From: a virus
Direction: 5' to 3' (one strand)
Length of the DNA: 25,345 nt
Virus record (IMG/VR): IMGVR_UViG_3300023179_000472
Coordinates: 1 to 25,345 of that record
Shown here: positions 4,401 through 25,345 of the stretch, in pieces
Numbering within the stretch: the first letter of the stretch is position 1
Layout of the letters: each line of letters starts with the position of its first letter
Notes under the pieces: generated by a model
What the model was told of the DNA's origin: nothing
Databases searched by the model: none
What the model saw: the letters and a program-made list of their open reading frames with translations, nothing else
Translations under genes and position numbers: made by a program

Positions 4401-7400
4401 TCACTATCAATGTCTTTTTGTATTTCTGAAGATGTATATGCGGAAAATAAATTTAAACCGTTATAGAAATAATTAAAATCATTTATTACTCTTGGGTAAA
4501 ACCCTAAATTCATCTGGGTTGATGTTAACAATCCTGTTGTAACATCTTCTTGAAGTACTATATCATAAAGTTGGTTGTCTGTTTTTAATGAATATGTTTT
4601 ATTTGGGTTGTTTGTTATAGGGTCATAATTTGATGTTTGATCAAAATCTTTCCAAACTGCTGCCATAAAATCATTTCCAGTTTCTACCCAATTTTTATAT
4701 CTATGCCAAATAGAACCGTATTTTAAAACCCAAGCAAATGGTAATTTATGTATTGCACTTTGTTTTTTGAATGTTGATAATATATAGCTTAGCTCATCTG
4801 TTTCTGTATCTCCTGATATGTATTTTTCTTTTAAAGTTGATAAAGGTAAACTATTTAAAAATAAATAAGCCGCTTCTCGATATGGATATTTATCAAAATT
4901 TTTATAATTTTCAACCCCTTTTAAAATTGAATTTATAAAATAAGGCGTATTTAACATCGATGTTGTGCCAGATTCAACTAAAAATCCATTGTAATTTTTA
5001 TAATTTAAATTACCTTCCGTAGGAAATTGATCTAAAGGATTTAAACTTCGTTTATTAAAGAAAGATTCTAATTCTGTTTTAGTTGTATAATTTAGAGAAG
5101 TGTCACCTGAATTTATTAATTTACCATTTTTAAATGAAAAATTAGTAAAAGGTCTTACATCAGAAGAAGAATTTTCAAAATTTGCAACTTGCGCTATAGT
5201 TTGATTAAACTTAATTACTTTTGATGTATTAAAAAAATTTATTGGGTCTGAAGTTAAATTAACGGCATTTGCAACATTATTCAACAACCATTCATTTTTT
5301 ATGTATGGATATACATCTGTTTGATCATATACTATCGTTTCACCTAAAGAATTATTTAAATAATTTTCTAAATTTTTTATACTTTGTGTAATTTTTTGTG
5401 ATGGTGGTTCAAAAGATGATATGTAAAATGGATTGTTTGTTACACTTTCTAAATATGGGTTATTATAAATACCTCTTGAATAATTTTCCCAACTTTCTCC
5501 TGTACCTTCATTTGATATGTGTCTTAAAATCAATTCAAAGTTTGCTGCATTAAAAGTATAATTTTTTAAAGTTTGTATCAAAAATGGGTTTGAATTTTGT
5601 AAAGATTGTAATATATTGTGTAATTCTGCTTCCATCAAAGTTTTGAAAACATTATATTTTGTTGAGTTTCCTCTGCCTAATTTACTGTAAAAAGCATAAG
5701 TTGTTATTCTTTCGTAAATTTCATAAATAAATTTTACTTCTTGTTTATTACTATATATTTCTTGAGTGAAGGGATATTCAACCGCATCATAAGTTATATA
5801 TGAAGTAAATGATGTATTAGTGTTAGTCGCTTGAATAGAAGTTGGGTTGATTCTTTGTGTCAATCCTATCAAATATTCTTCAACAAATTCTACTTCAGGC
5901 CATACACTATAATCATTCGATCCAGTATTTGGAAAATCTCCTGGGTATACAATATCATAAATTGTTTTACCTGAAAAAGTTTTTTCTTGTATAAGTTGTG
6001 GCCAAGGATAAACTGGTTGATTTTTTTTTGGTATGATTGGCTTATCAACAGAAACACTATTAGATTGATTTTGTAAAATTGCCATTTTTTTTATTGTATT
6101 ATCTTTTTGATACCAAGCAGATACATGGACATCATCAAGCAATCTTAAAAAGGCTTCAAAATTTGCAATAATAATTCCAATCATGTTTCTTATTGTTGGT
6201 TTATAACCAAGTTTTTCTGTTAAATTTTTTGCAAAAAATTCCGTTAAATTATTTTCTAAATCTTGTTTTGATTTTTTTATTTGTTTTTCTATTTCTCCAT
6301 ATTTTTCAAAAAATGTTTGATTTGTTATACCTTCTAGTATAAAATAATACCAATCTTTTGTTGTTGTACTAATTTCATTATCTAACTTAGTTTTAAAGTC
6401 GTCAATATCTGTTTGTGTTGGTTGAGAAGTTAGTGCTGATCTAGCAACTAAAGTTTTTTTATAGTCAATTGGGTATGAGTTACTAATAGTTTCAATCTTG
6501 TTATATAAAAAATTTTGATATTCTATATCAACAGGAATGTTAATATTAAAAGTTTTATTATCAATTTTGTAACTTCCATTTTTTCCAAATGAAACGTTTT
6601 TTTCTAATTTATCTTTATATTTTTTATTAATGTTTTCTAATAAACTTTTTGCGGTGGCCTTTTTTGGGGGGTCGTCATTTATTTCTTTTTTTAATGGGAA
6701 TATAGTTATAGTTTCATTTGAATCTTTAATTATTATTGGATTTGTTAAGTCTATATTTGTTTTCCACCAAGAATCTTGATTTGTATATATTTCTTTTAAG
6801 TAATCTGAAAGGTCATTTATATAAACTTCACAATCTGTTAGTACGTTTAATGATTGTGTTTTGTAATTATTTTGTATGTTTTTTATAAAAGTTGTTAGAT
6901 TTTCCTTAAATTGTATCAAAGTAAACTCTGGTAAATTTTTATCAATAAGATTTTTACTTTTATATTCATTATATACTTCTCTAATTTTTTCGTAACCTTT
7001 AGTTACGACATTTTGAGTAACTGAATTTTGGTTTGCATTTATTTGTAAATTGTTATTTGTTTGGTTTTGATTAGTCACTGTACTTATTTGTGTTTCATAC
7101 ATGTTTGGTAAAGCAACTAAATCAGACAATGAAACTTCATTGTAAATAGTAAATTGATAAGGTTCAAAATCTAAAGTAACATCAAAAGATCCACTGTCAG
7201 AATCGTATCTACTTTTAAATTTTTTTAATTGTAAGTTATACTTAACAGCCTTTCCATAAAAACCCTTAATTGTTAGAAAAAAAGGTGGATATGGGTATTG
7301 AAAAAATACTGAATATGGTGAATTGTCTCCCATTTCAAAAAGAGCCCTGCCTCTGACATCCAATAATTTAATTGTAACAGTAGGAAAAAATTTGGTTGTG

Positions 7401-7858
7401 TCTTGAATGTTTATTGATTTTATACCTAATAATCCTGTCTGAGTTGTTTGATTTTTACCTTCAGACATAAAAGTTTGATTTAAATAAAATTCGTCTGAAT
7501 TATTTGGTCTTTTAATTTGTGTTTGAACAGCTTGATTAATTCCTTGTCCTTCTAACACGCCTCTTCCAGTAATTTCATCAGTATATTTGTTAGTTAAAGT
7601 TTTTTGAAGTCCAGGGTTTAAAAAATTAATTGTTGCAACTGATATAGTTTGTTGTTCATTATTAGTTGGGCTTATACCAAGAGCAAGTCTTGTTCTTGGC
7701 ATAACTTTACACTCTAAATTAGCATACATTACAAAATTTTCTTGTTTTACATGCCTTTCTTTTACATTACCATCATTATCAATAATTTTATTTGGGTCTA
7801 TTAATAATACATTTTGATAATCAAAATCAACTGAAATATTTTCATTATTAACCACCAT
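1478..7858 (-). CDS. giant (2126-aa) baseplate hub-like structural protein
   Basis: Very long structural protein without transmembrane segments, rich in Asn, Thr, Tyr and Phe like many virion proteins. Near the N-terminus (about residues 155-240) there is a beta-rich segment with FPTVTIKLLDVRGRALFEMG and PYPPFFLTIKGFYGKAVKY. A second recognisable segment at about 1840-1870 (NVPMFYGPYVIRSVNHSI, then FTTDFVGYRQRI) resembles the way baseplate-hub domains of contractile tails end. The last ~130 residues (from about 1995) form a separate domain: FELEGNNLGDID, then a Cys-containing strand and FIPYANFKDIQTPIEVLV, weakly reminiscent of glucosaminidase/lysozyme-like domains. No separate gp5- or gp27-like gene is present in the window, so this protein may combine hub functions. 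It starts at 7858, overlapping the gp53-like gene by 11 bases, which suggests coupled translation. Function is inferred from position and texture; the lysozyme idea is weak. Confidence 0.65.
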   Translation of the reverse strand: MVVNNENISVDFDYQNVLLIDPNKIIDNDGNVKERHVKQENFVMYANLECKVMPRTRLALGISPTNNEQQTISVATINFLNPGLQKTLTNKYTDEITGRGVLEGQGINQAVQTQIKRPNNSDEFYLNQTFMSEGKNQTTQTGLLGIKSINIQDTTKFFPTVTIKLLDVRGRALFEMGDNSPYSVFFQYPYPPFFLTIKGFYGKAVKYNLQLKKFKSRYDSDSGSFDVTLDFEPYQFTIYNEVSLSDLVALPNMYETQISTVTNQNQTNNNLQINANQNSVTQNVVTKGYEKIREVYNEYKSKNLIDKNLPEFTLIQFKENLTTFIKNIQNNYKTQSLNVLTDCEVYINDLSDYLKEIYTNQDSWWKTNIDLTNPIIIKDSNETITIFPLKKEINDDPPKKATAKSLLENINKKYKDKLEKNVSFGKNGSYKIDNKTFNINIPVDIEYQNFLYNKIETISNSYPIDYKKTLVARSALTSQPTQTDIDDFKTKLDNEISTTTKDWYYFILEGITNQTFFEKYGEIEKQIKKSKQDLENNLTEFFAKNLTEKLGYKPTIRNMIGIIIANFEAFLRLLDDVHVSAWYQKDNTIKKMAILQNQSNSVSVDKPIIPKKNQPVYPWPQLIQEKTFSGKTIYDIVYPGDFPNTGSNDYSVWPEVEFVEEYLIGLTQRINPTSIQATNTNTSFTSYITYDAVEYPFTQEIYSNKQEVKFIYEIYERITTYAFYSKLGRGNSTKYNVFKTLMEAELHNILQSLQNSNPFLIQTLKNYTFNAANFELILRHISNEGTGESWENYSRGIYNNPYLESVTNNPFYISSFEPPSQKITQSIKNLENYLNNSLGETIVYDQTDVYPYIKNEWLLNNVANAVNLTSDPINFFNTSKVIKFNQTIAQVANFENSSSDVRPFTNFSFKNGKLINSGDTSLNYTTKTELESFFNKRSLNPLDQFPTEGNLNYKNYNGFLVESGTTSMLNTPYFINSILKGVENYKNFDKYPYREAAYLFLNSLPLSTLKEKYISGDTETDELSYILSTFKKQSAIHKLPFAWVLKYGSIWHRYKNWVETGNDFMAAVWKDFDQTSNYDPITNNPNKTYSLKTDNQLYDIVLQEDVTTGLLTSTQMNLGFYPRVINDFNYFYNGLNLFSAYTSSEIQKDIDSENLIISYYPESSTNFSYGIDPADPNRSIIIKTWSCVVKDILDNEYIIIPSFGSKYNQTKYECFDETNQNGWKLKIEVKNNPAIFNGSVRMFWPAPNYGYFDNSKVALNRPDQYLKQIITDRKTQENFRIQSEVTKPIQLLFKDKAEYSFIDEMFSVFEKDILDIFEQHFLNFSKSRYDYENILKTPQGYQTVDTVTTQRNKNFQTLMRELMKIKPNNKVKVTPDKFVENIRVSHLESFIKGIENFMTYDILLNIGNSSNYNKQKFYSLTRIPLVGKYIPKPYKVNTPVALPTQFNTTTLAQSVFYYPDEWKSLEVYVGFSTIPELIYKDGGSYITDFFVDLNIEFTQKNIEYYSYLIKMYASAKLLKQSLTPLEFYQQIQNYIETTNIFRNDMVNDLMPNLVKQLPNVTTTKTSKKANISGKTSRIEIYEKFKALNDKYIAGNEYKLTTLFEDFYFVDRASRNVGDQIYCDVVNWQEKINGLLVKNSEYSIGQLLKELINDSGFNHYQHPGYVNYYDVNDINVRPNSKNQGSTQIANDLFGTYLNVDYRKSKSKWLNILKGGDSLNLDIPGNDFKNDVFQLSRQSDMPLLEDQTAKLDWAYSNKVVAFNVDMGRFNQGVFKNIDINMENGQKTAEEIELNYATAQQAGGQNSFAQSYSMYNLYKYRVYSANVSMMGCALIQPLMWFNLKNVPMFYGPYVIRSVNHSIAPGSFTTDFVGYRQRISEYAPQENYLQSIKQNFVTPLLTSAKNNVSQGVTTNLSSQQTNKLSSLDGRILLDTQDSCGTLRTSSFTSLPYSASTQNNEPSNNIKNSIESSINNIAGLSQQQKTILKELVFTIAYLTNGNDTNQNFELEGNNLGDIDLTVLWGGSSASIIKSGSIGYFCGRVNTNEKFIPYANFKDIQTPIEVLVNYFETVVKNDVNLPNMNDFDKKEEFAKIYTQYWPSVLPSNVWDTMLSVDQDKIKTKIQKAFNLL

Positions 7859-8172: not shown

Positions 8173-11100
8173 TTAATTTAATTTATTTTTTCCGTTAAAT
8201 GTTTTTTTATTCAAGTTTGAGTTATATGGACTATATATTTCTTTTATTCGTTTTTCTTTAGTAACATAAGAAATATCTGGAAACCCTGTAGCTGTTTTAT
8301 ATAAAAGTTTTCTATCTGTTTCTTCGAGTTTGAAAGTTTTTAGTTTGTCTAAATCGGTCGAATTTTTTATATTGTATAATTTGTTTTTTTGGTTCTGGTA
8401 GGTTTGTTCCATATTGTTTTTTAACTTTTTTAATATATTTTTAAAATCTGGTTCAAGCCCAGCTTGTTTCACTTCTTGTGTTATTATATATGATTCAAAT
8501 AATGAAAATTTATCTGGATTAGTAAATGTTTGTGAACATAATGTATAGAATCTCTTATAGCCATCAGTTTCTCCATTAAAAAAGTCCTTAGAACAACATA
8601 CTTCTTCGTCATAAAGCTTATCTGTTTCAGTTTTAGCTAACACTTTGTAGTCTTTGTATATTTTATCTAAATCGTTACAAGCTTTTGCAATTAATCCATA
8701 ATCAGATAACATTTTATCAAAAACTCCTTTTGGGTCCGACAAATCATAAAACACTACTTCTCCTTTATTTGATATTTTTCCATCTTGTCCTTTTATTACT
8801 GTTTGTTGAACATTTTCCATTGTAACAATATTAAGTTTATTAAATAGAGTAACCAAATTTTGTTGTACTTTCACTATTTCATTTATGGGATTTGTTGTAT
8901 CTACAACTATTTCTTTACTAACACTTTCAACATATTTTTTCAAATCTCTTTTTAAATTTCTCATAATTGGTTCTGTTATACCTGGTATACCTTTTATATC
9001 TACCATTAATGGATCATTCAAATTTTCAATATCATCTTTAATTTTAGATGAAAGTTTGTTTAATTTTTTTTCTTGGTTATCGGGTTTTCCAAAAATTAAT
9101 GTATTTTGTGGTGTTTTACTATATATCATAGTATCTCCACTTGTAAAATGTCTTTCATCTGTTAATAGAGTATACATACTATAATTAGTTAAGCTATTTA
9201 TAGATTCTATTTGATTATAACTTATATTAATATATTCTTTTGTTTGTGTTGCTAATTCATTATAAACTTTAGAATAGTCAATGTCTCCAGATTCAGTATT
9301 ACCACTTACTACTGTTGTAAGAATACTTCCTATTGTTTCTCCCCCTTTTAATGATTTTTGTTCTTCAACTGTTTGATTTGCAATTGCTTTATCTACCAAC
9401 TCTACTAAAGCATAGTTTAATTCTGTTTCTTCTGCTCTTTCATCATAAACTTCTGTGTTAGCATAAAAATTGAAAGATAAAGCATTTTGTAATGATTCAA
9501 TTGGTCTACCTAAACCTTGTCCTCCAATAAATTTTATATCAATACTTATTTTTGCAATCATAGGTTGTAATCCAATACCTTCAGGATTAATATCAAAGTT
9601 GGGTGTTTCATAATCAATTGATAATGTACCTGGTATTACTTTTGTATGATAAAAATCACCAACTCGTATTACTAAAACAGGTGGAGCTCCAAATGACGTA
9701 TTTATTGCGTCATTATATTTTGGTCTTCCATCTGAACCAATTACAGGTATTGTTTGACCAGGTCTAACACATTGATTCAAAAATGTTAATCTGGCATTTA
9801 GTCCTTCAGGTGTTGTTGAATGAAAAACTGGATTAAAATATTTTAATTTATTTTTTAACCCTTTGAATACTAAAGGATCTGAGTCTTTTAACATTTCAAA
9901 GTAATCTTGTTCGTTTAAAAGTGTTCTAACTATTTTTTTTCCTATTTGTTGTTTGAGTTTATCTATTACATCAGTATTTGGTTGTGGTTTTACAGACTGA
10001 GGGTTAGGTTGATCTGGTTTACTTTGATTTAAATTATTTTTTTTGGTTGGGTCTTCATTTTGTTGCTTTTTTTGTATAACAATTTCACTTACTACCGCCA
10101 CATTAGTTGCTAAACTTGGAAATGAATATATAATATTCCCTTCATTAGATGAATTTATAATTTGCGGATTAGTTGAAAAACTTTCTCCTGGCATTGGTGG
10201 AATTACTGTAAATAGATAATTTGTTACGTTTGATAAAGAACCGTCTGATGTGATTGTAATATCTCCATTGTCAATTTCATTTTTTAAATTTTCTTCTAAC
10301 CATGATTTTGAGCTGTTTGCAAAAGCTTCGTTTTTTCCAGATATTTTTAATGATATTGTGTTAGAATTAGAAATAATAGATTTTATTTTTTCAACAAAAG
10401 ATTGTAATTGGGTATAATTGGACTCAAAAATATTTTTAAAAGATACTGCGCTTTCTTTTTGGTATTTTTTTCCGTTAACCTCAACTTCTAAAGGCGCATT
10501 AGTTTGAATATTTAACTGATAATTTTGATAATTATTAATGGACTCCTTAAAAGTATTTGTATTTGGAAAAAAATAAAATCCCAATTTACCTCTATTTTCT
10601 GCTACAAAATTTGAATTTGAAACATCGTTATTAGCAACAGTATTTGCGTTTTCTGGGCTTGTGTTTTCTTTGGGAATCGATCCTTGTATTTGTTGTAATT
10701 CTTCTTCCGTTAATCTATTATCGTTTAATAAATTTTGGTATGATTCTAACTCTCTTAAAGGTAATGTATTGAATTTTGCTGCTAACTCATACAAATCATA
10801 TTTAGTCGCGCCCGCAATAAAAGAATTTATTATAGATTGAACTTTTTCATCACCTAATTTTTCTAATTGTTTATTAACTAATAAATTCAAAATTGAAGGG
10901 TGGTCCACAACTATTTTAAAAGATAAAGTTCCTGTTCTTGTTGTATTTTTATAAGTGTATACTGGTTCAGGTCTTCCTAAAAAAGAAACTTCATCAAAAT
11001 TAGCGGTTGATCCGTCTTTGAATGTTACATCGTAAGGAGGAAACCACATTATTCTACCTCCGTTAGGTCCTCTTTCAGAAATTGGTAAATCTTCATAGGT

Positions 11101-12948
11101 AAATCCGGGTCTGTCTGAAGTTCTCCATGCTAAATTTTCTATAGAAATCATGTATTTTTTTGCGTTTTTTATTCCTACACTTGTTGATCCCAAACCTTTG
11201 TAGGGTGCAAAATTTAAATTATACGATCTATCCATAACGGAATTATTAAATTTTCTTCCACTTGTAGTTATTCCGTCTTTTTTTTGTAAATCGTTGAATG
11301 TATAGTATGGAGTATCTTTTGTAAAAATTCTTTCGTATTGTATTCCAGCCTCTTCTCCTGTTGAATTGTCTATGTATTTTAAAATTTTTGATCCTTTGGT
11401 AATCTCCTTATATCCATCATGAAAAACTTTAGAAATTTGGTTAATAGCGTTTCCTGCGTGTTTTAATCTTCTTATTCCTGTTAAATTGTCTGCAGAGTTT
11501 ACTAATCGTTGTGTTTCGTCTAAGATAGACCCTTGTTTAAAATTGAATTTATCTGATGTATTTTCAAAAAGAGTACTTGCAATTTGATTAACATCGTTAT
11601 CTAATTCAACCGCATCTCCGCCTTGTTTAATTTTAAATCCTATATTATTATAGAATCTTGGAGATACCCATACAAAACCAGCATCAGGTTTTGAACAATC
11701 ATCATAAGCAAGACCGCCTAAACCAAACTTCCAATTTAGTGACCTGTCTCCTTCATAAATAGTACTTAACTCATCTGAGCCAAAAACAATTGCGTCTATT
11801 CTATGTCCATAAGCATCTATTGGTATTGCATTTAAAGGAGACCCAATAAATGAAGGATTATTAAAATCTGAACCAACGTAAAAACCTCCTTCTATTGCCG
11901 CACCAAAATTTCGTAATATACTATTAACTCCATTTATTACCACGTTACCTCCTGTAGGTAAAACATAAGATGGTTTAAAAATATTTTTATTTAATAAACT
12001 AAATAATGTTGATATTTGTCCTCCACCAGTTTGTTCTAGCAATTTTTTTGATGGTTGTGTATATCTATTAAATCCACCCAATAAATTTAAAGACCCGCCC
12101 GCAACATTTTGAGCAATGTTTAATACTTGTCCTGATGTTGTAGGACTTCTGTCATCATTATCGTCTATAAAAATTCCTCCTTCGATTGGTGATGTTGGAG
12201 AATAATTACCTTGTATTTTATCTAAATAAGATGTTGGATTTTGTGAAAGTGTAATTCTAAAATCAACACTTCCTCCTAATCCATTACCAACTAAAGCAGA
12301 CGGTGACGTTTGATTTGTATTTGTTTCTCTATATAATTGTCTCAAATCTATAGAAGCTATTGTTGCATTTACATTTGATCTTAAAGAACTTTGTCCTAAT
12401 TTTACAATATAAGAGTCGTTTGACAATGATCCATCACTTCCTGTTGGGTTATCGTTTAATAGTAAGTTATATGTGTTATATGACGATGCATTAAATGAAG
12501 GCGGATCCCAATAATTTTGATGGATTTGCCCAATTAATTGAATGTCTGTTAAAATTATTAAGTCATTAAATCCTCCTGTAGGTCCATAATTATTTTTTAA
12601 AAAAGCATTTGTTCTATTTGGCTCTGATGGTATGAATAATTCTGTAGTTGGTGGATTATATTCTCCTTGATTTGATGAACTAATTACAAGGGGTCCATTA
12701 TAAGAAATTTGATTTACAAATCCTCCATTTGGACCATATGTATTTAACGGGTATAAACTATTTGCAACATTTGTTGATCCAATATTTGGTGAGTTGGTAT
12801 CACTATAATCGGAAAGTAAAATTTCATAATTTGTAGGACCTTGTGGTGAAGAATAAAATCCTGCAACACTATATTTTGGTAAAGTTCTTGTGACTAAAGC
12901 ATTTCTAAAATTTGCACTATTTTGAAAACTTAATAAACTTTCTGCCAT
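8173..12948 (-). CDS. giant (1591-aa) baseplate/tail structural protein
   Basis: A long virion-type protein whose exact family I do not recognise. Residues 1-260 are Asn/Ser/Gly/Pro-rich and contain two similar motifs about 50-65 residues apart (TYGPNGGFV and NYGPTGGFND). Around 598-690 a conserved-looking segment reads MISIENLAWRTSDRPGFTYE, GPNGGRIMWFPPYDVTF and TLSFKIVVDHPSILNLLV, typical of baseplate beta domains. Around 775-900 a segment with QSFVEKIKSIISNSNTISLK and nearby helices resembles a degenerate OmpA-type peptidoglycan-binding fold (weak). A Lys/Gln/Pro-rich linker (about 956-993) separates it from a final part with PPVLVIRVGDFYHTKVIPG (about 1085-1105) and a helical C-terminus with a CC pair (EVCCSKDF). 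Its position between the tape measure and the gp53-like gene supports a baseplate role. Confidence 0.65.
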   Translation of the reverse strand: MAESLLSFQNSANFRNALVTRTLPKYSVAGFYSSPQGPTNYEILLSDYSDTNSPNIGSTNVANSLYPLNTYGPNGGFVNQISYNGPLVISSSNQGEYNPPTTELFIPSEPNRTNAFLKNNYGPTGGFNDLIILTDIQLIGQIHQNYWDPPSFNASSYNTYNLLLNDNPTGSDGSLSNDSYIVKLGQSSLRSNVNATIASIDLRQLYRETNTNQTSPSALVGNGLGGSVDFRITLSQNPTSYLDKIQGNYSPTSPIEGGIFIDDNDDRSPTTSGQVLNIAQNVAGGSLNLLGGFNRYTQPSKKLLEQTGGGQISTLFSLLNKNIFKPSYVLPTGGNVVINGVNSILRNFGAAIEGGFYVGSDFNNPSFIGSPLNAIPIDAYGHRIDAIVFGSDELSTIYEGDRSLNWKFGLGGLAYDDCSKPDAGFVWVSPRFYNNIGFKIKQGGDAVELDNDVNQIASTLFENTSDKFNFKQGSILDETQRLVNSADNLTGIRRLKHAGNAINQISKVFHDGYKEITKGSKILKYIDNSTGEEAGIQYERIFTKDTPYYTFNDLQKKDGITTSGRKFNNSVMDRSYNLNFAPYKGLGSTSVGIKNAKKYMISIENLAWRTSDRPGFTYEDLPISERGPNGGRIMWFPPYDVTFKDGSTANFDEVSFLGRPEPVYTYKNTTRTGTLSFKIVVDHPSILNLLVNKQLEKLGDEKVQSIINSFIAGATKYDLYELAAKFNTLPLRELESYQNLLNDNRLTEEELQQIQGSIPKENTSPENANTVANNDVSNSNFVAENRGKLGFYFFPNTNTFKESINNYQNYQLNIQTNAPLEVEVNGKKYQKESAVSFKNIFESNYTQLQSFVEKIKSIISNSNTISLKISGKNEAFANSSKSWLEENLKNEIDNGDITITSDGSLSNVTNYLFTVIPPMPGESFSTNPQIINSSNEGNIIYSFPSLATNVAVVSEIVIQKKQQNEDPTKKNNLNQSKPDQPNPQSVKPQPNTDVIDKLKQQIGKKIVRTLLNEQDYFEMLKDSDPLVFKGLKNKLKYFNPVFHSTTPEGLNARLTFLNQCVRPGQTIPVIGSDGRPKYNDAINTSFGAPPVLVIRVGDFYHTKVIPGTLSIDYETPNFDINPEGIGLQPMIAKISIDIKFIGGQGLGRPIESLQNALSFNFYANTEVYDERAEETELNYALVELVDKAIANQTVEEQKSLKGGETIGSILTTVVSGNTESGDIDYSKVYNELATQTKEYINISYNQIESINSLTNYSMYTLLTDERHFTSGDTMIYSKTPQNTLIFGKPDNQEKKLNKLSSKIKDDIENLNDPLMVDIKGIPGITEPIMRNLKRDLKKYVESVSKEIVVDTTNPINEIVKVQQNLVTLFNKLNIVTMENVQQTVIKGQDGKISNKGEVVFYDLSDPKGVFDKMLSDYGLIAKACNDLDKIYKDYKVLAKTETDKLYDEEVCCSKDFFNGETDGYKRFYTLCSQTFTNPDKFSLFESYIITQEVKQAGLEPDFKNILKKLKNNMEQTYQNQKNKLYNIKNSTDLDKLKTFKLEETDRKLLYKTATGFPDISYVTKEKRIKEIYSPYNSNLNKKTFNGKNKLN

Positions 12949-14965: not shown

Positions 14966-15121
14966 TCAATTCCAACCATTTTTTTGTTCGGTTAGTTTTT
15001 CAATGATATAGAGTCGTTTATATGTTGGTATTGTATAAAAATCTTGATATGACATTCCAATACTCTTAGATAAGAATATATATTGTTCTATTAAATTTTT
15101 TTGGTAGTTAGAAGAAAGGCC
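14966..15121 (-). CDS. out-of-frame extension of the gp26-like gene (gp51/chaperone-like), likely made by ribosomal frameshifting
   Basis: Downstream of the gp26-like stop codon, a reading frame shifted +1 (equivalently -2) encodes 51 further codons ending in TGA at 14966. The peptide looks like a real protein: SSNYQKNLIEQYIFLSKSIG, then MSYQDFYTIPTYKRLYIIEK. That fits short phage tail-assembly chaperone extensions, where a Y-x-x-[FIV] helix is followed by a MP-x-x-x-R-type helix. The only ATG in this frame lies in the middle of the peptide, so an independent start would lose half of it. The frame overlaps the end of the gp26-like gene, which carries six T followed by C (GAG TTT TTT CGG, 15131-15120). 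A tRNA-Phe on TTT could move one base forward onto TTC. Joined there, the fused product would be about 298 aa. The coordinates given assume this shift site; initiation at an upstream TTG is the alternative. Confidence 0.55.
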   Translation of the reverse strand, partial: GLSSNYQKNLIEQYIFLSKSIGMSYQDFYTIPTYKRLYIIEKLTEQKNGWN

Positions 15122-15863
15122 GAAAAAACTCAACCCCAAACGATATCTTTGTCGAAACGTTTTCTCCAGACGGGGCTTTTGTATTAATTGATAGGTCTAA
15201 ACCTGGTTCATTGTCATCTAAAAATTTTTTAATATATTTTGAATCTGCAAATGGCATAGTTTTAATAAATTCTATTATACTAACTTTGTCACTTTGTCCA
15301 TCTAATTCAATTATTTGTTTTGTGAAATTCCATAAAGTTTGAGGTGGAACCATACCAACAGGATATGAATCAATCTGTCTTTGTATTTCTTCTTTTTCTC
15401 CAAAATTTAATGGTTTTATTTTTATTGTTTTTCCTGTTTTAGGTAGTTTTGTAATAAAATGTCCATTTTCATCTGCAAAATGTTCAGTTTTTTTAAAAGT
15501 CAAACTATCAATAACAAAGGTATGTGAAAATTGTTTATTTGTTATTGGGTCTGTAAGAGAAACAGTATAATCAGGACCAAATGAAGAGTTTCTTAAAAAT
15601 ATTAAAATTGTTTGTATATCTCCTTCCAACATTTCATTAACATCTAAATCTGGTTCGTATATTTTAGTTCTTAACAGTTGTGATAGAAAATTTTTATTGT
15701 TTACAGCGCTTATAAGTATATCCTCGTCTGTGGCGGTTAAATACCCAACTTTTATTGAAGATTTTTTATTTTTATAAAAAACTCCTTTTGTTGGTAGTTT
15801 TATAACATCGTGAGGTAAATTAAAATTAGATTGACCGTAATCTATAGCCGACATATTTTCCAT
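15108..15863 (-). CDS. T4 gp26-like baseplate hub / tail-assembly protein
   Basis: A 251-aa protein with the layout of the T4 gp26 baseplate family. It has an N-terminal LPTKGVFYKNK (around residues 24-34), then VGYLTATDEDILIS, a helical middle with LRTKIYEPDLDVNEMLEGD and an LRNSSFG segment, a TIKIKPLNFGEKEEIQ strand, and a characteristic end FGVEFFRPFF. Proteins of this family act in baseplate-hub and tail assembly; by position next to the tape measure they match tail-assembly chaperones of other phages. The four-cysteine or CP-C element found in many relatives between the two halves is not present (DPITNKQF instead). Two in-frame ATG codons (residues 1 and 4) are possible starts. The 5' leader holds a 15-base near-perfect palindrome. 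The 3' end overlaps an out-of-frame extension that suggests a second, longer product. Confidence 0.75.
   Translation of the reverse strand: MENMSAIDYGQSNFNLPHDVIKLPTKGVFYKNKKSSIKVGYLTATDEDILISAVNNKNFLSQLLRTKIYEPDLDVNEMLEGDIQTILIFLRNSSFGPDYTVSLTDPITNKQFSHTFVIDSLTFKKTEHFADENGHFITKLPKTGKTIKIKPLNFGEKEEIQRQIDSYPVGMVPPQTLWNFTKQIIELDGQSDKVSIIEFIKTMPFADSKYIKKFLDDNEPGLDLSINTKAPSGENVSTKISFGVEFFRPFF
15123..15128 (-). promoter_or_regulatory. candidate ribosomal frameshift site (T6 followed by C)
   Basis: The gp26-like zero frame reads GAG TTT TTT CGG CCT TTC TTC TAA. A +1 move of the P-site tRNA from TTT to TTC, or a -2 slip on the T run, enters the open frame that ends at 14966. The site lies 5 codons before the zero-frame stop. 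I saw no strong stem-loop just downstream. Confidence 0.4.
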
Positions 15864-15914: not shown

Positions 15915-16403
15915 TTAGTATACCAATATTGCTCTATCAATTACTAAACTAAAAGAAATTTCAGCTAAACCATCAGTATCGTAACCAACACCACCAAAAT
16001 CGGCTCCCGTTGGAAAAGCGTTTACCAAAATCCATTTTTCTATGACTACTCCGGTTGGGTCCAACATTTCTAGATCAACGTTTCTTTTATAACCCGCAGC
16101 ATAACCCATCCTACCAGTTACTGATTCTGCTATTGTTCTAATCCATTCCATCATAGCTTGAGCAGCAGAAGGTCCGATTGGGTCTAATAATTTTACTGAA
16201 ATAGAATTCCACTTAAATGAACCAGCAACATAAGTTTCAGTATTTAAAAATTTAATAGGATTTGATGTAATATCTATTTTGGGTCTAGATGCTGTTTGTA
16301 CATACCACTCATTAATTCCTAATGATGATGGAAACCTTAAAATAAACCTGTTTTTCTTTTTAGGTTCATAGGGAATAGGCATTTTCATTAATAAATCGGC
16401 CAT
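15915..16403 (-). CDS. tail tube protein, T4 gp19-like
   Basis: 162 aa, almost the length of T4 gp19 (163 aa), which stacks as hexameric rings to form the inner tube of the contractile tail. The sequence has the expected pattern. A short N-terminus (MADLLMKMPIPYEPKKKNRF) leads into the first strand (ILRFPSSLGINEWYVQTASR), which carries the conserved W-x-V-x-x-A-x-R-P feature. Then come WNSISVKLLDPIGPSAAQAM, a helix MMEWIRTIAESVTGRMGYAA, and the C-terminal strands DLEMLDPTGVVIEKWILVNA and GLAEISFSLVIDRAILVY. It sits downstream of the sheath, separated only by the HAD-type gene. It has its own late-type motif 29 bases before the ATG and a long A-rich leader, as expected for a very highly expressed virion protein. 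Confidence 0.9.
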   Translation of the reverse strand: MADLLMKMPIPYEPKKKNRFILRFPSSLGINEWYVQTASRPKIDITSNPIKFLNTETYVAGSFKWNSISVKLLDPIGPSAAQAMMEWIRTIAESVTGRMGYAAGYKRNVDLEMLDPTGVVIEKWILVNAFPTGADFGGVGYDTDGLAEISFSLVIDRAILVY

Positions 16404-17444: not shown

Positions 17445-20400
17445 TTAAATATTTTCAAAAGAAGCTCCCGTTGGAGTTATGTAAAAAGTAATATCAATAA
17501 ATTCGAGTGATCTAGTTGGTTTTATATAAATTTTACCTGTCAATTGATTTCTATCTAAATCTTCAGGATCTGAAGAAACAGTAACTCTAAAATCATATAA
17601 ACCTCTGTCCCTTCTGATACCATCTAAAATTGGATTTACAGAATTTAAAAAATCTTGTCTAACTTTATCGTCATTTTGGTCAAACAACAATCTAACTGAA
17701 ACTGCAGATATTAATTTTCTTGCTTGTAATAGTAATCGTCTAACATTAATTCTATCTAAAGCAGATTGTCTAACTTGTAAAGTTTTATTACCCCAAATAA
17801 CAGTACCAATATCCGAAAAAGTTGCAATAGGATTAATTCTACCAATATATAATACATCTCTGTCTTCTTGTGTTAATTTTTTTCTTGCTTTTATTGAGTT
17901 TACAATACCTCTTGTGTAACCAGCCGCAGCAAACCAAGGAAACGCGATATTATCAGTTAATGCTAAATTTCTTGTAACTTCAGCGGTAGGTGGTATGTAA
18001 ATTTGTGTATTATTTACTGTATCTCTAGTTAAAACCCAAGGATAATAAGTTGCTGTGTAATTTGAATCTAATCCTGCTTCTCCTAGATTGTCTATTGCCT
18101 CTTGTGGATAAATTAAACCATCCACACCAGTTACCGTTGGTAAAAACATATTATAATCTGGAGTCGTAACAATATATAAAGAATCTGCTCTTTGTTCTTC
18201 AATCATTGATATTGCAGACTCAACAAGATTACTATTATTAACATAATCAATACCAGGTGTTACAAATAAATTAATGTTAACTGCTTCAGGGTTTGCAAAA
18301 GTGCTGATCCCAAGAAGGTATGCGTAATAATCTGTATTAGCATAATTTTCAGTACCTGAACCTACAGTTATTTGTTTAAATGCTCCCCAACCTGTTGCAT
18401 TTGGATATCTATTTGTAGGACAAGAACCTTTTAAATATCCTCTTCTACCTAACTGAAACTCGTCTTTGTTTGACCTAAATTCTCTATAAATATCCCATCC
18501 ATCAAATCCTCCTTGTACAAGTAATGTGAATTTTCTAGAAATTAACCTATAGTAAGGATTAGTATCTAAATCTGGTTCTGAACTAAATGATCCTGAACCA
18601 CAAATAAATCTTGATTGTCCACTTGATGAGAATACATCAGGTAATGTAATACCGCTAGCATTTTTATCCATGTGGAAACCTGCAGTTCTGTAGTTCCAAT
18701 CAGAAGATTCAATAGCGAAACAAGAATTTATAGGATTCCTTTTACCAAAATATTTAAAAAAGTTAGGATCATATCCATAATCGGCACTTGTTGAAAATCC
18801 TAAATAAGTTTTTCTTACATTATCTCCACTAGATAAAATAGCATCATCTTTTCCTGAAGGTAAACCAAAGGGGGGGTCAAAAACTAATTCTCCTGGAAAA
18901 TCATACTTAGCTTTTATAATAGGAAAAGGAGATTTAGCACCTGCATATTCTCTAAAATTATACCCATCAAAACCACAAGGTAATGAATCAATTGGTGCGT
19001 CCTCATTCATCTCTAGCATTATACGCTTAGACTTTAATTCAAACTCACCATCCAACGTACCAATTTTTTTAGCGATAAAGTTATTTTCATTTGGATTCAT
19101 TGAACAATTAGTGAATTTTTCTAACACAACGGGATTAGCATCAGTATCGTAGTAATCACGGACTAAAACATCAAAATTTAAATTATTGAAAGATATATTA
19201 GTTATAGAAATTTTTACTTCAAAATTAGCATTATCACCATCAGAAATTGTGTAGAACTTAAACAAGTTGTAAACTTTGTTTCCTCTAACTTCTGAAACAA
19301 CCCAAGGGGAAGAAGGTGATTGATATTTTTCAAGATACCAAGAAATAGAAGTTGGGTCTGCGCTTTGAGAATCAGGTAACTCAATAAAATTACATTTTAA
19401 ACCTCTTATATAACCTTTGTTATAGGAATAAGTAAGAAGTGTTTGAAAAGTTTCTTCAACAAATAAAGGAACAATATTTCTAGGTTTTTGAAAATTAGAA
19501 ACACCAAAAACTTTTGTCAAATAAGAAGTTTCACTGATACTAAAAGAAGCTTCAAAAGAAAAATTTGTTCCTAATCTGTCTTTAGCATTTATAACAAATG
19601 TAGAAAAAGGATTTTTAGTAACTCCACTGTATTCACCAGTACAATTCATTGTTACATCAGTAACACCTGTAATTTGGAAAGTTGGGTTTTCGTCAGTAGA
19701 ATAAGTTGATATACCCCTTGACCTTAAAGTTGCAACAACTAAGTCATCATATAAAGTATATGAATTTCCTGTATAATAATAAACCATACCAACAACACTA
19801 CCTGAATAACAATCAGTTATTGTTGTTGTAGTGGTTGTTGTTGGTACTATTGGTGTTGGTGTTGCACAAGGGTTTGTTGTTGTGGTTGTTGTTGTAGGTA
19901 TTATTGTTGTTGTTGTAGTTACTGGATTTATATGTGTAATACCTGTTACTACTGTCCAATAAGAAAATCCAGAATATAAACCATTATTGATGTTAGAAAA
20001 GAGAGCATAATACCAAGCATCGTTAAATGGTGATGAATAGTTTGTTAAATTACTAGAAACTGAAGGAACATTAAACACATTCGTTTGTGCTGTGTATCCT
20101 GTTAACAAATCATAATCCTCACCATCTATGGTTCCAAAATAATTAATTGCGGTTGCTTGAGATAAAGGGTCTAATATTCTTCCATAAACAAATGATTTAT
20201 GGTCTTCATCAAGAGTATTAGAACTTCCATTGAAATTTTCATAAGGAACGGTCAATATTGATTCTATTTCAGGAGGAAAACTATCTAAAAATAAAATAGA
20301 ATTTTGAGAGTTAGTGCAACCTGTAAAATCTACAGTGAATCCTGATGTTAAAATATTATTACAATCTGGTTTACAATTAATAATTGTTGGTTCTTCACAA

Positions 20401-20771
20401 TAAAAATTAACAGTTTTAGGATCTACATTTGCACTTGTTACAATTGACCATGATGGACCAGCATCATAACCAGATAATCCTAAGATTCTTGTTACAAATA
20501 ATTGATTTGATTGTTGTAAATATGACTTAGCAATATAAGCCGCTTCATACTTTGGAATTTGGGTATTTACAAACTTTTCAGGTAAAGTAGGCCCAAAAAT
20601 TGATTCAAATTCATTATAATTTTTTATAAAAATTGGTTCAAATGCAGGACCACTTATTGTTTCTCCTACAATACCCAATGTAGTAACCCCAACAGTTTGA
20701 GCGACAAAACTCAAATCCACTTCAGATGTGTAAACGCCAGGTGATACAAAAACTTTACTATTAGTTGCCAT
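17445..20771 (-). CDS. contractile tail sheath protein with large central insertion
   Basis: The protein is 1108 aa; T4 gp18 has 659. The N-terminus is typical of sheath proteins: KVFVSPGVYTSEVDLSFVAQ, then GIVGETISGPAFEPIFIKNY and AYIAKSYLQQSNQLFVTRIL. The C-terminal ~220 residues are also typical: AFPWFAAAGYTRGIVNSIKA, a VLYIGRINPIATFSDIGTVI segment, RINVRRLLLQARKLISAVSV and an end with LTGKIYIKPTRSLEFIDITF. Between them lie several hundred extra residues, including Cys-containing segments and a Thr-only low-complexity region (about residues 283-318). Sheath subunits surround the tube and contract to drive it through the host envelope; the insert probably faces outward. I chose the ATG at 20771 rather than one at 20828, because MATNSKVFVSPGVYT is the family's normal start and the longer version would translate the promoter motif. 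Confidence 0.9.
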   Translation of the reverse strand: MATNSKVFVSPGVYTSEVDLSFVAQTVGVTTLGIVGETISGPAFEPIFIKNYNEFESIFGPTLPEKFVNTQIPKYEAAYIAKSYLQQSNQLFVTRILGLSGYDAGPSWSIVTSANVDPKTVNFYCEEPTIINCKPDCNNILTSGFTVDFTGCTNSQNSILFLDSFPPEIESILTVPYENFNGSSNTLDEDHKSFVYGRILDPLSQATAINYFGTIDGEDYDLLTGYTAQTNVFNVPSVSSNLTNYSSPFNDAWYYALFSNINNGLYSGFSYWTVVTGITHINPVTTTTTIIPTTTTTTTNPCATPTPIVPTTTTTTTITDCYSGSVVGMVYYYTGNSYTLYDDLVVATLRSRGISTYSTDENPTFQITGVTDVTMNCTGEYSGVTKNPFSTFVINAKDRLGTNFSFEASFSISETSYLTKVFGVSNFQKPRNIVPLFVEETFQTLLTYSYNKGYIRGLKCNFIELPDSQSADPTSISWYLEKYQSPSSPWVVSEVRGNKVYNLFKFYTISDGDNANFEVKISITNISFNNLNFDVLVRDYYDTDANPVVLEKFTNCSMNPNENNFIAKKIGTLDGEFELKSKRIMLEMNEDAPIDSLPCGFDGYNFREYAGAKSPFPIIKAKYDFPGELVFDPPFGLPSGKDDAILSSGDNVRKTYLGFSTSADYGYDPNFFKYFGKRNPINSCFAIESSDWNYRTAGFHMDKNASGITLPDVFSSSGQSRFICGSGSFSSEPDLDTNPYYRLISRKFTLLVQGGFDGWDIYREFRSNKDEFQLGRRGYLKGSCPTNRYPNATGWGAFKQITVGSGTENYANTDYYAYLLGISTFANPEAVNINLFVTPGIDYVNNSNLVESAISMIEEQRADSLYIVTTPDYNMFLPTVTGVDGLIYPQEAIDNLGEAGLDSNYTATYYPWVLTRDTVNNTQIYIPPTAEVTRNLALTDNIAFPWFAAAGYTRGIVNSIKARKKLTQEDRDVLYIGRINPIATFSDIGTVIWGNKTLQVRQSALDRINVRRLLLQARKLISAVSVRLLFDQNDDKVRQDFLNSVNPILDGIRRDRGLYDFRVTVSSDPEDLDRNQLTGKIYIKPTRSLEFIDITFYITPTGASFENI
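19818..19921 (-). repeat. Thr-codon low-complexity repeat inside the sheath gene
   Basis: Runs of ACA/ACT codons give three blocks of 5 to 7 threonines separated by IIP, NPCATPTPIV and similar Pro-rich spacers. Triplet runs of this kind change length easily by slippage. The protein stretch would be an extended, mucin-like linker. It is flanked by cysteines. Confidence 0.85.
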
Positions 20772-20804
20772 ATAAATTATATTTTTTAAAAAATTTATTT
20801 TTAC

Positions 20805-20812
20805 TATAAATA
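20805..20812 (-). promoter_or_regulatory. late-type promoter motif TATTTATA (sheath gene)
   Basis: Coding-direction AAAGTATTTATAGTAAAAA, 33 bases before the sheath ATG at 20771. It forms a divergent pair with the plus-strand copy at 20849-20856. Confidence 0.55.
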
Positions 20813-20848
20813 CTTTAAAAAACTTCAAAAACTTTACATTATAAAAAG

Positions 20849-22598: not shown

Positions 22599-22609
22599 TT
22601 CCTTTTATT

Positions 22610-22617
22610 GATAAATA
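22610..22617 (-). promoter_or_regulatory. late-type motif variant TATTTATC (neck-like gene)
   Basis: Coding-direction TAATATTTATCAATAAAAGG, 11 bases before the ATG at 22598. Seven of eight bases match TATTTATA. It lies in the divergent spacer shared with the helicase. Confidence 0.45.
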
Positions 22618-22640
22618 TTAAAAATTTCTTATTTTTTACT

Positions 22641-22663
22641 CAAAAAGTTTTGTTTGCACAAAA
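22641..22663. promoter_or_regulatory. overlapping inverted repeats upstream of the helicase start
   Basis: CAAAA-AG-TTTTG (22641-22652) overlaps TTTTGT-TTGC-ACAAAA (22648-22663). Both are perfect short palindromes in the space between the leftward neck-like gene and the chosen helicase start at 22665. They may be an operator for the rightward gene or chance in AT-rich DNA. Confidence 0.25.
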
Positions 22664-22664
22664 T

Positions 22665-25345
22665 TTGATAGAACACAAATCTTTAGAAATTCTTGAACTT
22701 TATTCAGGATCGAATAACTATATATTATATTTAAAAAACAAAAAAGAATCTTTTTCGAAATTTTTCCCAACAAGGACACAAGCAGAATACATTGTTAATC
22801 ATTTTAACACCATTCCAAAAGTTGCAAGAAAATGGGTTGAGTTAGATACTTATTTTGCCAAGAAATTTGCAGAAGAAAAATATTTTATAGAAACCCCCAA
22901 AGAAATTTATATAGAAAAATTATTAGTCGAAAAAGAAAAATCTTACCATGTTTGGGCTAAATTTTTTGAAAAAGATAATCTATCAGAGTTTTGGATTCCA
23001 AAATCAGCAATTATAAAAACACATAATGTAAAAAGTGTTTCTGTCGATTATTCAAAATATTCACATAGACCTCCTTTAGATCACCAAAAAGTGGCAATTG
23101 AAAAACTTGCAGGGTCTAAAAGATTTATTTTGGCAGACGACATGGGTCTTGGTAAGTTTTTACCTGTTAATACACCTGTTTATACACCTACAGGCACTAA
23201 AAAAATTGGTAATATAAAAATTGGTGATAAGGTTATTGGTAGCGATGGCAAAGCTCATAATGTAATTGGTGTATTCCCACAAGGCATAAAGGAAACCTAT
23301 AAAATTACATTCAACGATGGATTTTCAATTTTATCCGGAGACGAACATTTATGGTCTGTTTCATCCCCAAATTATAGCAACAATCGAAAAAACGAAAGAC
23401 AAAAAAAATCATTAGTTTTATCAACAAAACAAATGTATGAGGGAGGTAAAATTAAAGTTAAAGGTATTAACTCTAACAAAAATAAAAAATATGAAATTGA
23501 AACCTACTATAAATTGCCAAACGGAAATAATAAATGGCAAATCCCAATCGTGAAACCAATACAATTTGAACGAAATGATAATCTTCCGATTGACCCTTAT
23601 TTGTTAGGACTTGGGTTGGGTGATGGTTCATTTAATAAAAAAAACATTAGATTTTCAGTCCATAAAGATGATTATGATGATTTATTTGCCTTATTAAATT
23701 TAAAAGAAAATAAACCACAAGATAATAAAAGGATTGGAACTATTAATGTGGGGGTATCTTTATATGAGTTAGGTATTGAACACACTAGGTCAATTAATAA
23801 ATTTATTCCAGAAATATACAAATATTCATCGATTGAAAATAGATTAGCAATTCTACAAGGATTAATGGATACTGACGGGCATTGTATGTTTAACGGAAAT
23901 AAAACTTTTTTAGGAACCGAATTTAGCACTATTTCAAAACAACTTTGTGATGATGTTGTTGAATTGGTACAAACATTAGGGGGTGTAGCAAGAGTCAAAA
24001 CTCGCATACCAACTTATACATATAAGGATGAAAAAAAGAAAGGTAAGTTATCATATAGAGTTAATATTAAATTACCGAATGGTATGAATCCGTTTAGATT
24101 AAAACGAAAAGCTAACAAATATATTGAACCAAAAAAATACCCAACAGGTAGATATATTAAAAATATTGAAAAAGTTGGTTTTGAAGAAAGTGTTTGTATA
24201 TCGGTTGACGCACCTGATAAATTATATGTAACGGAACACTGTATAGTAACACATAATACTACATCAACAATTATTGCTGCGTTAGAAACAAACGCAAAAA
24301 AAATATTAATTGTTTGTCCCGCATCTTTAAAAATAAATTGGCAAAGAGAAATCGAAAATTATTCTAATAGACCTGTTTTTATTGCAGAAGGAAAAAAATT
24401 TTCAACCGACCATGATTTTGTAATAATAAATTATGACATTTTAAAAAACTTTCATGATACAAAAGAAAAAGAAAATTCTTTATTAGAAAAATCTAATTTT
24501 GATTTAGTAATACTTGATGAAGCCCACATGATATCAAATGGTCAGGCTCAAAGAACAAAAATTATAAATAGTTTTGTAAAAAAAATAGATAAAGTTTGGT
24601 TGTTAACAGGAACACCAATGACATCTCGACCTATGAATTATTATAATCTATTAAACATAATAGAAAGTCCTGTTGCTCAAAATTGGAAGGCGTATGCAAT
24701 ACGTTATTGTCAGGGATTTCAGTTTACTGCAGGAAAAAGAAAAGTATGGAATGTATCGGGAGCGTCTAATTTAGAAGAATTAAGAGATAGAACTTCAAAA
24801 CAAATATTAAGAAGACTCAAAGAAGATGTCTTAGATCTACCTGATAAAATTATAACACCAGTTTATTTAAGATTAAAATCAAAAGAATACGAAGAACTTA
24901 TGGGTGATTATTATGATTGGTATGATAAAAACCCTGAAGAGTCATCATCACTTACGGTTCAGTTTTCAAAGTTAATGAAAGTTAGAAAAGTAATTGCTAA
25001 TGAAAAAACAAAACAAACTATTGAGTTTGCTGAAAACATAATAGATCAAGGAAAAAAAGTTATTATATTTACAAACTTCACAGACACACTTCAGACAATA
25101 AACCATCATTTTGGAAAACAATCAGTTTATCTTGATGGAAGTTGTTCTAATTCAGTTCGTCAACAAGCCGTCGACTTATTTCAAAATGATGAAAAAATTA
25201 AAGTCTTTGTTGGAAATTTAAAAGCGGCTGGAGTTGGTTTAACTCTAACAAGAGCAGAAGCGGTTATTATGAACGACTTATCTTTTGTTCCCGCAGAACA
25301 TGCGCAAGCCGAGGACAGAGCATATCGTTATGGTCAAAAATCAAA
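22665..25345 (+). CDS. SNF2/SMARCAL1-like helicase, intein-containing, runs off the right edge
   Basis: A superfamily 2 DNA translocase of the SNF2 type. Motif I is ADDMGLGK, continued after the intein by TTSTIIAALE. Motif Ia is KILIVCPASLKINWQREI, motif II VILDEAHMIS (DEAH, 24516-24527), motif III VWLLTGTPMTSRP, and motifs V/VI FVGNLKAAGVGLTLTRAEAV and QAEDRAYRYGQKS, ending at the window edge. About 164 residues precede the intein and include an N-terminal LEILELYSGSNNYILYLKNK and a region with FWIPKSAII before the helicase core. Such proteins remodel forked or single-strand-coated DNA in phage replication or repair. No ATG occurs in frame before the Walker A methionine, though the frame is open from 22572. 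I chose TTG 22665 because the recognisable N-terminus begins there; TTG 22608 and 22650 are alternatives. Activity requires removal of the intein, which separates Lys and Thr of the ATP-binding loop. Confidence 0.85.
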   Translation, partial: MIEHKSLEILELYSGSNNYILYLKNKKESFSKFFPTRTQAEYIVNHFNTIPKVARKWVELDTYFAKKFAEEKYFIETPKEIYIEKLLVEKEKSYHVWAKFFEKDNLSEFWIPKSAIIKTHNVKSVSVDYSKYSHRPPLDHQKVAIEKLAGSKRFILADDMGLGKFLPVNTPVYTPTGTKKIGNIKIGDKVIGSDGKAHNVIGVFPQGIKETYKITFNDGFSILSGDEHLWSVSSPNYSNNRKNERQKKSLVLSTKQMYEGGKIKVKGINSNKNKKYEIETYYKLPNGNNKWQIPIVKPIQFERNDNLPIDPYLLGLGLGDGSFNKKNIRFSVHKDDYDDLFALLNLKENKPQDNKRIGTINVGVSLYELGIEHTRSINKFIPEIYKYSSIENRLAILQGLMDTDGHCMFNGNKTFLGTEFSTISKQLCDDVVELVQTLGGVARVKTRIPTYTYKDEKKKGKLSYRVNIKLPNGMNPFRLKRKANKYIEPKKYPTGRYIKNIEKVGFEESVCISVDAPDKLYVTEHCIVTHNTTSTIIAALETNAKKILIVCPASLKINWQREIENYSNRPVFIAEGKKFSTDHDFVIINYDILKNFHDTKEKENSLLEKSNFDLVILDEAHMISNGQAQRTKIINSFVKKIDKVWLLTGTPMTSRPMNYYNLLNIIESPVAQNWKAYAIRYCQGFQFTAGKRKVWNVSGASNLEELRDRTSKQILRRLKEDVLDLPDKIITPVYLRLKSKEYEELMGDYYDWYDKNPEESSSLTVQFSKLMKVRKVIANEKTKQTIEFAENIIDQGKKVIIFTNFTDTLQTINHHFGKQSVYLDGSCSNSVRQQAVDLFQNDEKIKVFVGNLKAAGVGLTLTRAEAVIMNDLSFVPAEHAQAEDRAYRYGQKS
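23157..24257 (+). mobile_element. class 3-type LAGLIDADG intein in the helicase Walker A motif
   Basis: A 367-residue in-frame insertion between GLGK and TTST. The N-terminal splicing block is FLPVNTPVYTPTGTKKIG then KIGDKVIGSDG. Residue 1 is Phe, not Cys or Ser. Block B reads LSGDEHLWSV, with Trp66. The end reads SVCISVDAPDKLYVTE and CIVTHN followed by Thr, giving Cys347, Thr365, His366, Asn367 and +1 Thr. Trp, Cys and Thr at these places form the WCT triplet of class 3 inteins, in which the block F cysteine replaces the missing first nucleophile. Between them are the two LAGLIDADG motifs of a homing endonuclease: LLGLGLGDGS (about residues 149-158, Asp156) and LQGLMDTDG (233-241, Asp240). 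Both acidic residues are present, so the nuclease may be active. Homing would target intein-less copies of this highly conserved site. Confidence 0.9.

Follow-up and report, generated by a model that had tools for sequence, protein, structure and literature searches.

The lambda gpG/gpGT proteins and the P2-type chaperones, reportedly described by Xu, Hendrix and Duda in 2004, share with the locus considered here an overlapping frame just upstream of the tape-measure gene and a long form inferred to be made at low frequency, but they shift by -1 at another type of slippery site, are smaller proteins, and have no detectable sequence similarity to it. Frameshifting of the G/GT kind ahead of the tape-measure gene is widespread, and shifts of -1, -2, and +1 have all been reported (PMC5009743). 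For T4-like phages, the tail-assembly-chaperone genes were identified in 2022 by Vladimirov, Gautam and Davidson (Virology 566:9-15), as related by two citing papers (PMC10885494, PMC12846349), according to which some of these phages use a polyT -1 signal and others carry separate short and long genes. T4 gp26/gp51 agree with our locus in belonging to PF12322, in lying between tail tube and tape measure, in sharing their N-terminal part, and in carrying a helical C-terminal tail on the long form; T4 uses two separate genes, whereas one overlap with a putative shift is found here. The other T4-like groups examined shift by -1, mostly at T_TTT_TTC, in contrast to the +1 shift at UUU_C proposed here, with the zero frame offset relative to the T run.

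Forward shifts at comparable sites are known from more distant systems. UUU_CGC +1 frameshifting was proposed in HF1-group haloviruses (PMC7230728); the tail chaperones of these viruses and of HSTV-2 differ by their archaeal hosts and by an upstream hairpin not being reported (PMC7230728, PMC5009743). At UUU_CGU, the +1 shift is proven in influenza A PA-X (PMC3498833), the UCC_UUU_CGU site of which has the same UUU_CGN in P- and A-site, but concerns a eukaryotic ribosome, an unrelated gene, and another E-site codon. Bacterial prfB (RF2), shifting at CUUUGA, and synthetic upstream hairpins resemble our locus in a duplex just behind the ribosome that stimulates +1 (PMC6321510); in contrast to prfB, our locus combines an mRNA hairpin with a sense codon. 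In designed constructs translated in vitro by 70S ribosomes, upstream hairpins adjoining the shift site stimulated +1 and attenuated -1 frameshifting (PMC6321510). Here, we analyzed the window, i.e., the whole stretch of 25,345 nucleotides of viral DNA from IMG/VR record IMGVR_UViG_3300023179_000472, together with its relatives (the window clade). On the evidence of sequence comparison, a +1 slip at UUU_CGN, probably aided by an upstream hairpin, very probably joins a gp26-like protein to an extension in the overlapping frame, giving short and long tail-assembly chaperones.

The gp26-like gene and the overlapping +1 frame

By synteny, two overlapping frames lie between the tail tube and the presumed tape-measure gene, the gene order being sheath, tube, gp26-like gene, tail extension, and next gene:

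15915..16403, minus strand: tail tube gene, upstream of the gp26-like gene (phrog_4542 tail tube, 3.8e-19)
15863..15108, minus strand: gp26-like gene, putative short tail-assembly chaperone (TAC-N), 251 aa (PF12322 T4_baseplate, phrog_150)
15121..14966, minus strand: +1-frame extension (TAC-C), 51 codons (15121-14969) and stop, with a conserved motif, third-position bias, and three predicted helices
12988..14943, minus strand: presumed tape-measure gene, 651 aa, ATG at 14943, assigned by position only

In profile searches, the gp26-like protein matched PF12322 T4_baseplate with 34.6 bits, above the gathering cut-off of 24.5, and the phrog_150 baseplate hub (1.5e-13). PF12322 includes T4 gp26 (8.8e-64) as well as T4 gp51 (3.9e-52), the latter with an extra C-terminal tail whose end is similar to the +1-frame tails of the window clade. 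Since direct comparison of the window-clade profile with the single T4 gp26 and gp51 sequences gave no signal, the link to this pair rests on PF12322. The Cys-pair zinc motif of many PF12322 members, which the model does not demand, is absent from the window and from relative L001 (APSGE), while several others show CPxCGE.

Read on the minus strand, the 3' end of the gp26-like gene is GAG TTT TTT CGG CCT TTC TTC TAA. The +1 frame (equal to the -2 frame) stays open from 15196 to its stop at 14968-14966, and the extension counted from GGC at 15121 comprises 51 residues (GLSSNYQKNLIEQYIFLSKSIGMSYQDFYTIPTYKRLYIIEKLTEQKNGWN), as had been stated in the preliminary description of a 51-residue tail overlapping the gp26-like 3' end at TTT TTT C. 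Among relatives, its consensus reads LSSxYRxxLxDEYYxxxKFLxxSYsDFxxMPTYxRKYLxDKIIE. An open run of 35 codons arises in shuffled sequence of the same composition ~4% of the time. Compared alone with family models, the tail gave chance-level matches only, save phrog_634 for the version of cyanophage S-B68. The fusion of 298 residues was modeled by AlphaFold2 with a mean pLDDT of 71, the extension being predicted as three helices (251-268, 272-277, and 280-294). Matches of the predicted fusion among viral structures were gp26-type baseplate hub proteins, that of Bacillus phage SP-15 among them; among solved structures, the top row was the HK97 tail-assembly chaperone 2ob9 (Z 5.3, Foldseek E 0.28, rmsd 4.1 A over 95 residues), a likeness of the model that is only suggestive.

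That the tape-measure gene directly follows the tail, as claimed at the outset, agrees with the next ATG at 14943; its identity as tape measure derives from position and synteny only. The equivalent gene carries the annotation tape measure in Flavobacterium phage immuto and Listeria phage LIS04, and a family search of Pfam and PHROGs with the window protein gave no match.

Further genes of the window were recorded in passing. The tail sheath protein (17445-20828, minus strand, ~1100 aa) contains a large insert with threonine runs (TTTTTTIIPTTTTTTTNPC...), its match to sheath domains being confined to the C-terminal part. After the tape measure, two very large proteins are encoded on the minus strand (1478-7858 and 8173-12948; 2126 and 1591 aa), which have no match in Pfam or PHROGs and are presumably baseplate or hub components. 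The protein at 2-400 (minus strand) weakly matches the T4 gp32 single-strand DNA-binding protein (PF08804, 28.1 bits vs. 26.8). A SNF2-type helicase is encoded at 22608-25343 on the plus strand, its Walker A motif split by an intein that carries a LAGLIDADG endonuclease (PF14528, PF05203, PF00176). Inteins usually start with Cys; this one apparently starts with Phe (GLGK-FLPVNTPVYTPTG), ends VTHN-T, and could belong to class 3 or be inactive.

Conservation of the shift site in the window clade and the T4-like family

Relatives were collected with one close relative first (54% identity), followed by 80 with the two-sequence alignment and 80 with L076, resulting in 97 distinct IMG/VR relatives after removal of duplicates; a search for relatives in bacterial genome contigs found none. 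The site in question is composed as follows:

15128..15122, minus strand: shift site TTT_TTT_C, with E-site TTT 15128-15126, P-site TTT 15125-15123, A-site CGG 15122-15120, and first +1 codon GGC 15121-15119

Aligning the relatives for the T run and the open second frame, as the preliminary description had suggested, revealed the conservation of both. The pattern NNN-TT[T/C]-TTT-CG[GCT] is kept in all 97 relatives, with a P-site TTT and an A-site CGG, CGC, or CGT in every one, and an E-site TTT in 93 and TTC in 4; the site fits the UUU_C +1 class (P-site UUU, then C, A-site CGN) 97 times out of 97. Likewise, the +1 frame continues uninterrupted beyond the gp26 stop in 97/97 relatives (to the contig end where truncated). 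This includes all 70 non-redundant relatives (<90% identity), in which the other two frames have ~3 stops each. Differences in the tail amount to 12205/8441/21024 for positions 1/2/3 of the +1-frame codons, and by this pattern the +1-frame tail is under purifying selection.

Codon choice was evaluated for 35 representatives (<80% identity), with the expectation taken from codon use of the same genes. The P-site Phe is TTT in 35/35 (27.6 expected), the next Phe after the site is TTC in 35/35 (7.4 expected), the A-site Arg is CGN in 35/35 (4.5 expected), and the Pro codon after the site is CCT in 34/35 (13.8 expected). CGN accounts for 12.6% of the Arg codons in the gp26-like genes of the relatives. 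For the same amino acid Phe, codon choice is non-random in opposite directions on either side of the shift. The TTC and CCT choices serve the +1 frame and precede the gp26 stop; therefore, +1 reading starts upstream of this stop. Comparison of the relatives thus demonstrates the open frame, the conservation of the site, and coding selection, and gives good support to the original claim that a frameshift into the +1 frame joins the gp26-like protein to a chaperone extension. Neither of the two observations named beforehand as speaking against it was made, since a conserved ATG for the tail was not found among the relatives and the overlap of gp26 and tail is never lost. The accompanying statement that the tail has no usable start of its own needs one refinement: the window has TTG codons in the +1 frame just upstream of the site, at 15139 and 15133, and does not strictly prove the statement by itself, but in five relatives (L028, L065, L127, L130, L131) this frame lacks any ATG, GTG, or TTG as far as 75 nt into the tail.

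The +1 arrangement is also present in immuto, SP-15, LIS04, Microcystis phage Mel-JY01, Streptococcus phage GXN1, Rhodothermus phage RM378, and the uncultured LR756508. Judged by their sequences, these and the immuto-type relatives are independent lineages with the same +1 arrangement. The immuto-type clade (L182-L261) is a second very large uncultured group with at least 600 matches, ~76 distinct IMG/VR relatives being among the matches listed; its sites are mostly TTT_TTT_TGG or TTT_CTT_TGG, of which CTT_TGG resembles the RF2 CUU_U slip. Most other T4-like groups examined, cyanophages among them, obtain an equivalent tail by -1. In P-HM2, S-B68, Cr30, Aeh1, OLIVR6, PhiW-14, and Vibrio D482, the -1 continuation lies at GAT_TTT_TTC with the canonical T_TTT_TTC heptamer, and in May, D524, and Paride the continuation is likewise in the -1 frame. 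In T4, the fused form is encoded as gene 51, separate from gene 26. Consequently, one family (PF12322) holds all three arrangements.

The probable upstream RNA hairpin

Two segments upstream of the site are constrained in the 35 representatives (<80% identity) and would form the arms of an RNA stem:

15176..15171, minus strand: 5' arm, GCCCCG, with a C-ending Ala/Thr/Ser codon in 34/35 (2.9 expected)
15138..15133, minus strand: 3' arm, TGGGGT, ending 7 nt before the P-site codon, with Gly as GGG in 34/35 (3.3 expected)

Within the loop, the Gly codon is GGA in 34/35 (10.0 expected). The stem GCCCC(N)/(N)GGGGU has a 32-nt loop and the same spacing in all 97 relatives, and 95.6% of its cells pair, compared with 24-63% in slid controls. 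Compared with dinucleotide shuffles, a clearly better fold is seen only for the segment from -60 to -6 (mean z -1.97; neighboring segments -0.85 to +0.48), and the stem is part of the minimum free energy structure in 43/45 representatives. As the fold of the window sequence alone is unremarkable (z -0.24), the case for the hairpin rests on conservation. Its 3' arm ends near the E-site codon, where a Shine-Dalgarno duplex would lie. At the level of sequence comparison, the relatives demonstrate an RNA-level constraint upstream of the site, at codons not dictated by the protein. In the immuto clade, inspection showed no conservation of the GGGG arm, the Gly codon there being variable.

The stem shows little base-pair covariation. 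GCACC/GGTGT in the L076 clade, altered on both sides, was considered as a compensatory change, which is possible but ambiguous, as these are common codons there and a nearby Gly also changes to the common GGT; one member of this clade with GGC breaks the stem pair. The association of the outer pair (G-C vs. T) was not significant after clustering (p = 0.11). Two other candidate elements were rejected: a stimulatory RNA structure on the 3' side of the site (mean z near -0.7 in the segments there, no consensus fold), and a pseudoknot of loop GGAGAA with TTCTTC after the site, which pairs in 96% of cells but shows no covariation and is broken by TAT variants.

The loop itself hosts a conserved TCAGGAGA at 15170-15162 on the minus strand (TCTGGAGA in the window), which is Shine-Dalgarno-like with Gly fixed as GGA. 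In LR756508 (L005 3669-3729), a strong hairpin of 7 bp, CGCATCC/GGATGCG, lies 3 nt ahead of the TTT_CTA shift site, and Mel-JY01 has GCCAA/TTGGC at a similar position; these are possible independent upstream hairpins.

Rather than being a hairpin arm, the conserved GGGG could bind 16S rRNA in the way of an internal Shine-Dalgarno sequence: GGGGU is able to pair with the anti-Shine-Dalgarno sequence, and the RF2 +1 site relies on such a sequence (PMC8710568). We regard this as unlikely, given that the spacing of ~8 nt exceeds the 3 nt in RF2 and that GCCCC, lying 32 nt further upstream, has a C-wobble constraint of equal strength (34/35 vs. 2.9 expected), which would be left unexplained.

Probable direction and mechanism of the shift

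The preliminary description had left the direction at +1 or -2. In a -2 event as in phage Mu, where such frameshifting of the tail chaperones is known (PMC5009743), tRNA-Phe would slip back two bases on the T6 run and one extra Phe would be inserted; TTT_TTT indeed gives perfect -2 re-pairing in 93/97 relatives and in Mel-JY01, RM378, and LIS04. The tRNA-Phe anticodon GAA makes the change from UUU to UUC a perfect +1 re-pairing, while TTC_TTT_C in 4 window-clade relatives, GXN1, and L265 allows +1 and has a central mismatch for -2. Similarly, TTT_CTA of LR756508 permits +1 with a mismatch or no match for -2, and a pyrimidine follows UUU in nearly all lineages, as required for +1. Because the TTC-TTT-C variants re-pair only in +1, this direction is favored and a -2 shift appears quite improbable; at TTT_TTT_A of LIS04, +1 re-pairing is imperfect, -2 is possible, and the direction is ambiguous.

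The tail could also be translated as a small protein of its own, either from an independent start or by ribosomes that re-initiate past the gp26 stop, seeing that most relatives have TTG and half have ATG in the +1 frame ahead of the site and that in cyanophage S-B68 and in Cr30 the corresponding sequence is annotated as a gene with its own ATG. However, these starts are by-products of zero-frame codons and absent in the five relatives named above, +1 coding selection (Phe TTC, Pro CCT) begins before the gp26 stop, where re-initiation would not translate, and T4 gp51 is evidence that the fused form functions, leaving very little room for a separate protein. Mixed mRNAs from RNA-polymerase slippage are the least probable explanation, with next to no weight in our view: most relatives have the six-T run, but a run of this length is a weak slippage site, and it is interrupted to TTCTTT in 4 relatives and GXN1 and to TTTCTA in LR756508.

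Taking the hairpin-aided +1 slip as the preferred reading, we infer the following course for the slippage itself, the function of both products, and the role of the hairpin. The gp26-like gene would yield the short chaperone TAC-N of 251 aa. A fraction of ribosomes would slip +1 at GAG_TTT_TTT_CGG, where tRNA-Phe occupies the P-site at UUU and the A-site presents an Arg CGN codon that is presumably slow to be read; this tRNA would re-pair with UUC, and reading would go on with GGC CTT TCT..., giving the 298-residue long form (TAC-NC) with its 51-residue helical C-terminal extension. Refolding of the GCCCC/GGGGU hairpin behind the ribosome, at a distance of ~7 nt from the P-site, would probably promote the +1 slip, as the internal Shine-Dalgarno duplex does in RF2. 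By analogy, both forms in all likelihood act like lambda gpG/gpGT; they would coat the tape-measure protein, with the extension recruiting tail-tube subunits.

A +1 or -2 event on such a gene pair had initially been considered unusual and suited to unify the T4-like genes with the G/GT scheme. The forward direction is unusual; the unification had already been made by the 2022 work, as far as the citing papers convey it (PMC10885494, PMC12846349). Compared through these papers, the new elements here are a +1 direction of the shift for the gp26/gp51 family and the conserved GCCCC/GGGGU hairpin, the short/long tail-assembly-chaperone scheme already recognized for T4-like phages being, by its sequence features, run forward. 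We propose tentatively, at somewhat less than even confidence, a hairpin-stimulated +1 programmed frameshift in a bacterial virus that is reversed in direction relative to the -1 sister lineages at a homologous T run while keeping the two-product scheme. The +1 shift itself would add a large uncultured T4-like clade and several isolated phages, shifting forward, to the frameshifted tail chaperones. One gene pair shows three solutions for the same two proteins (+1, -1, and two genes), which makes the evolution of recoding directly testable, and the upstream hairpin, whose synonymous sites are under strong constraint, is a concrete natural candidate for the stimulator studied in designed constructs (PMC6321510). 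The predicted long chaperone is missed by the annotations of these phages, e.g., immuto and SP-15, in which the tail is given only as a short hypothetical-protein fragment.
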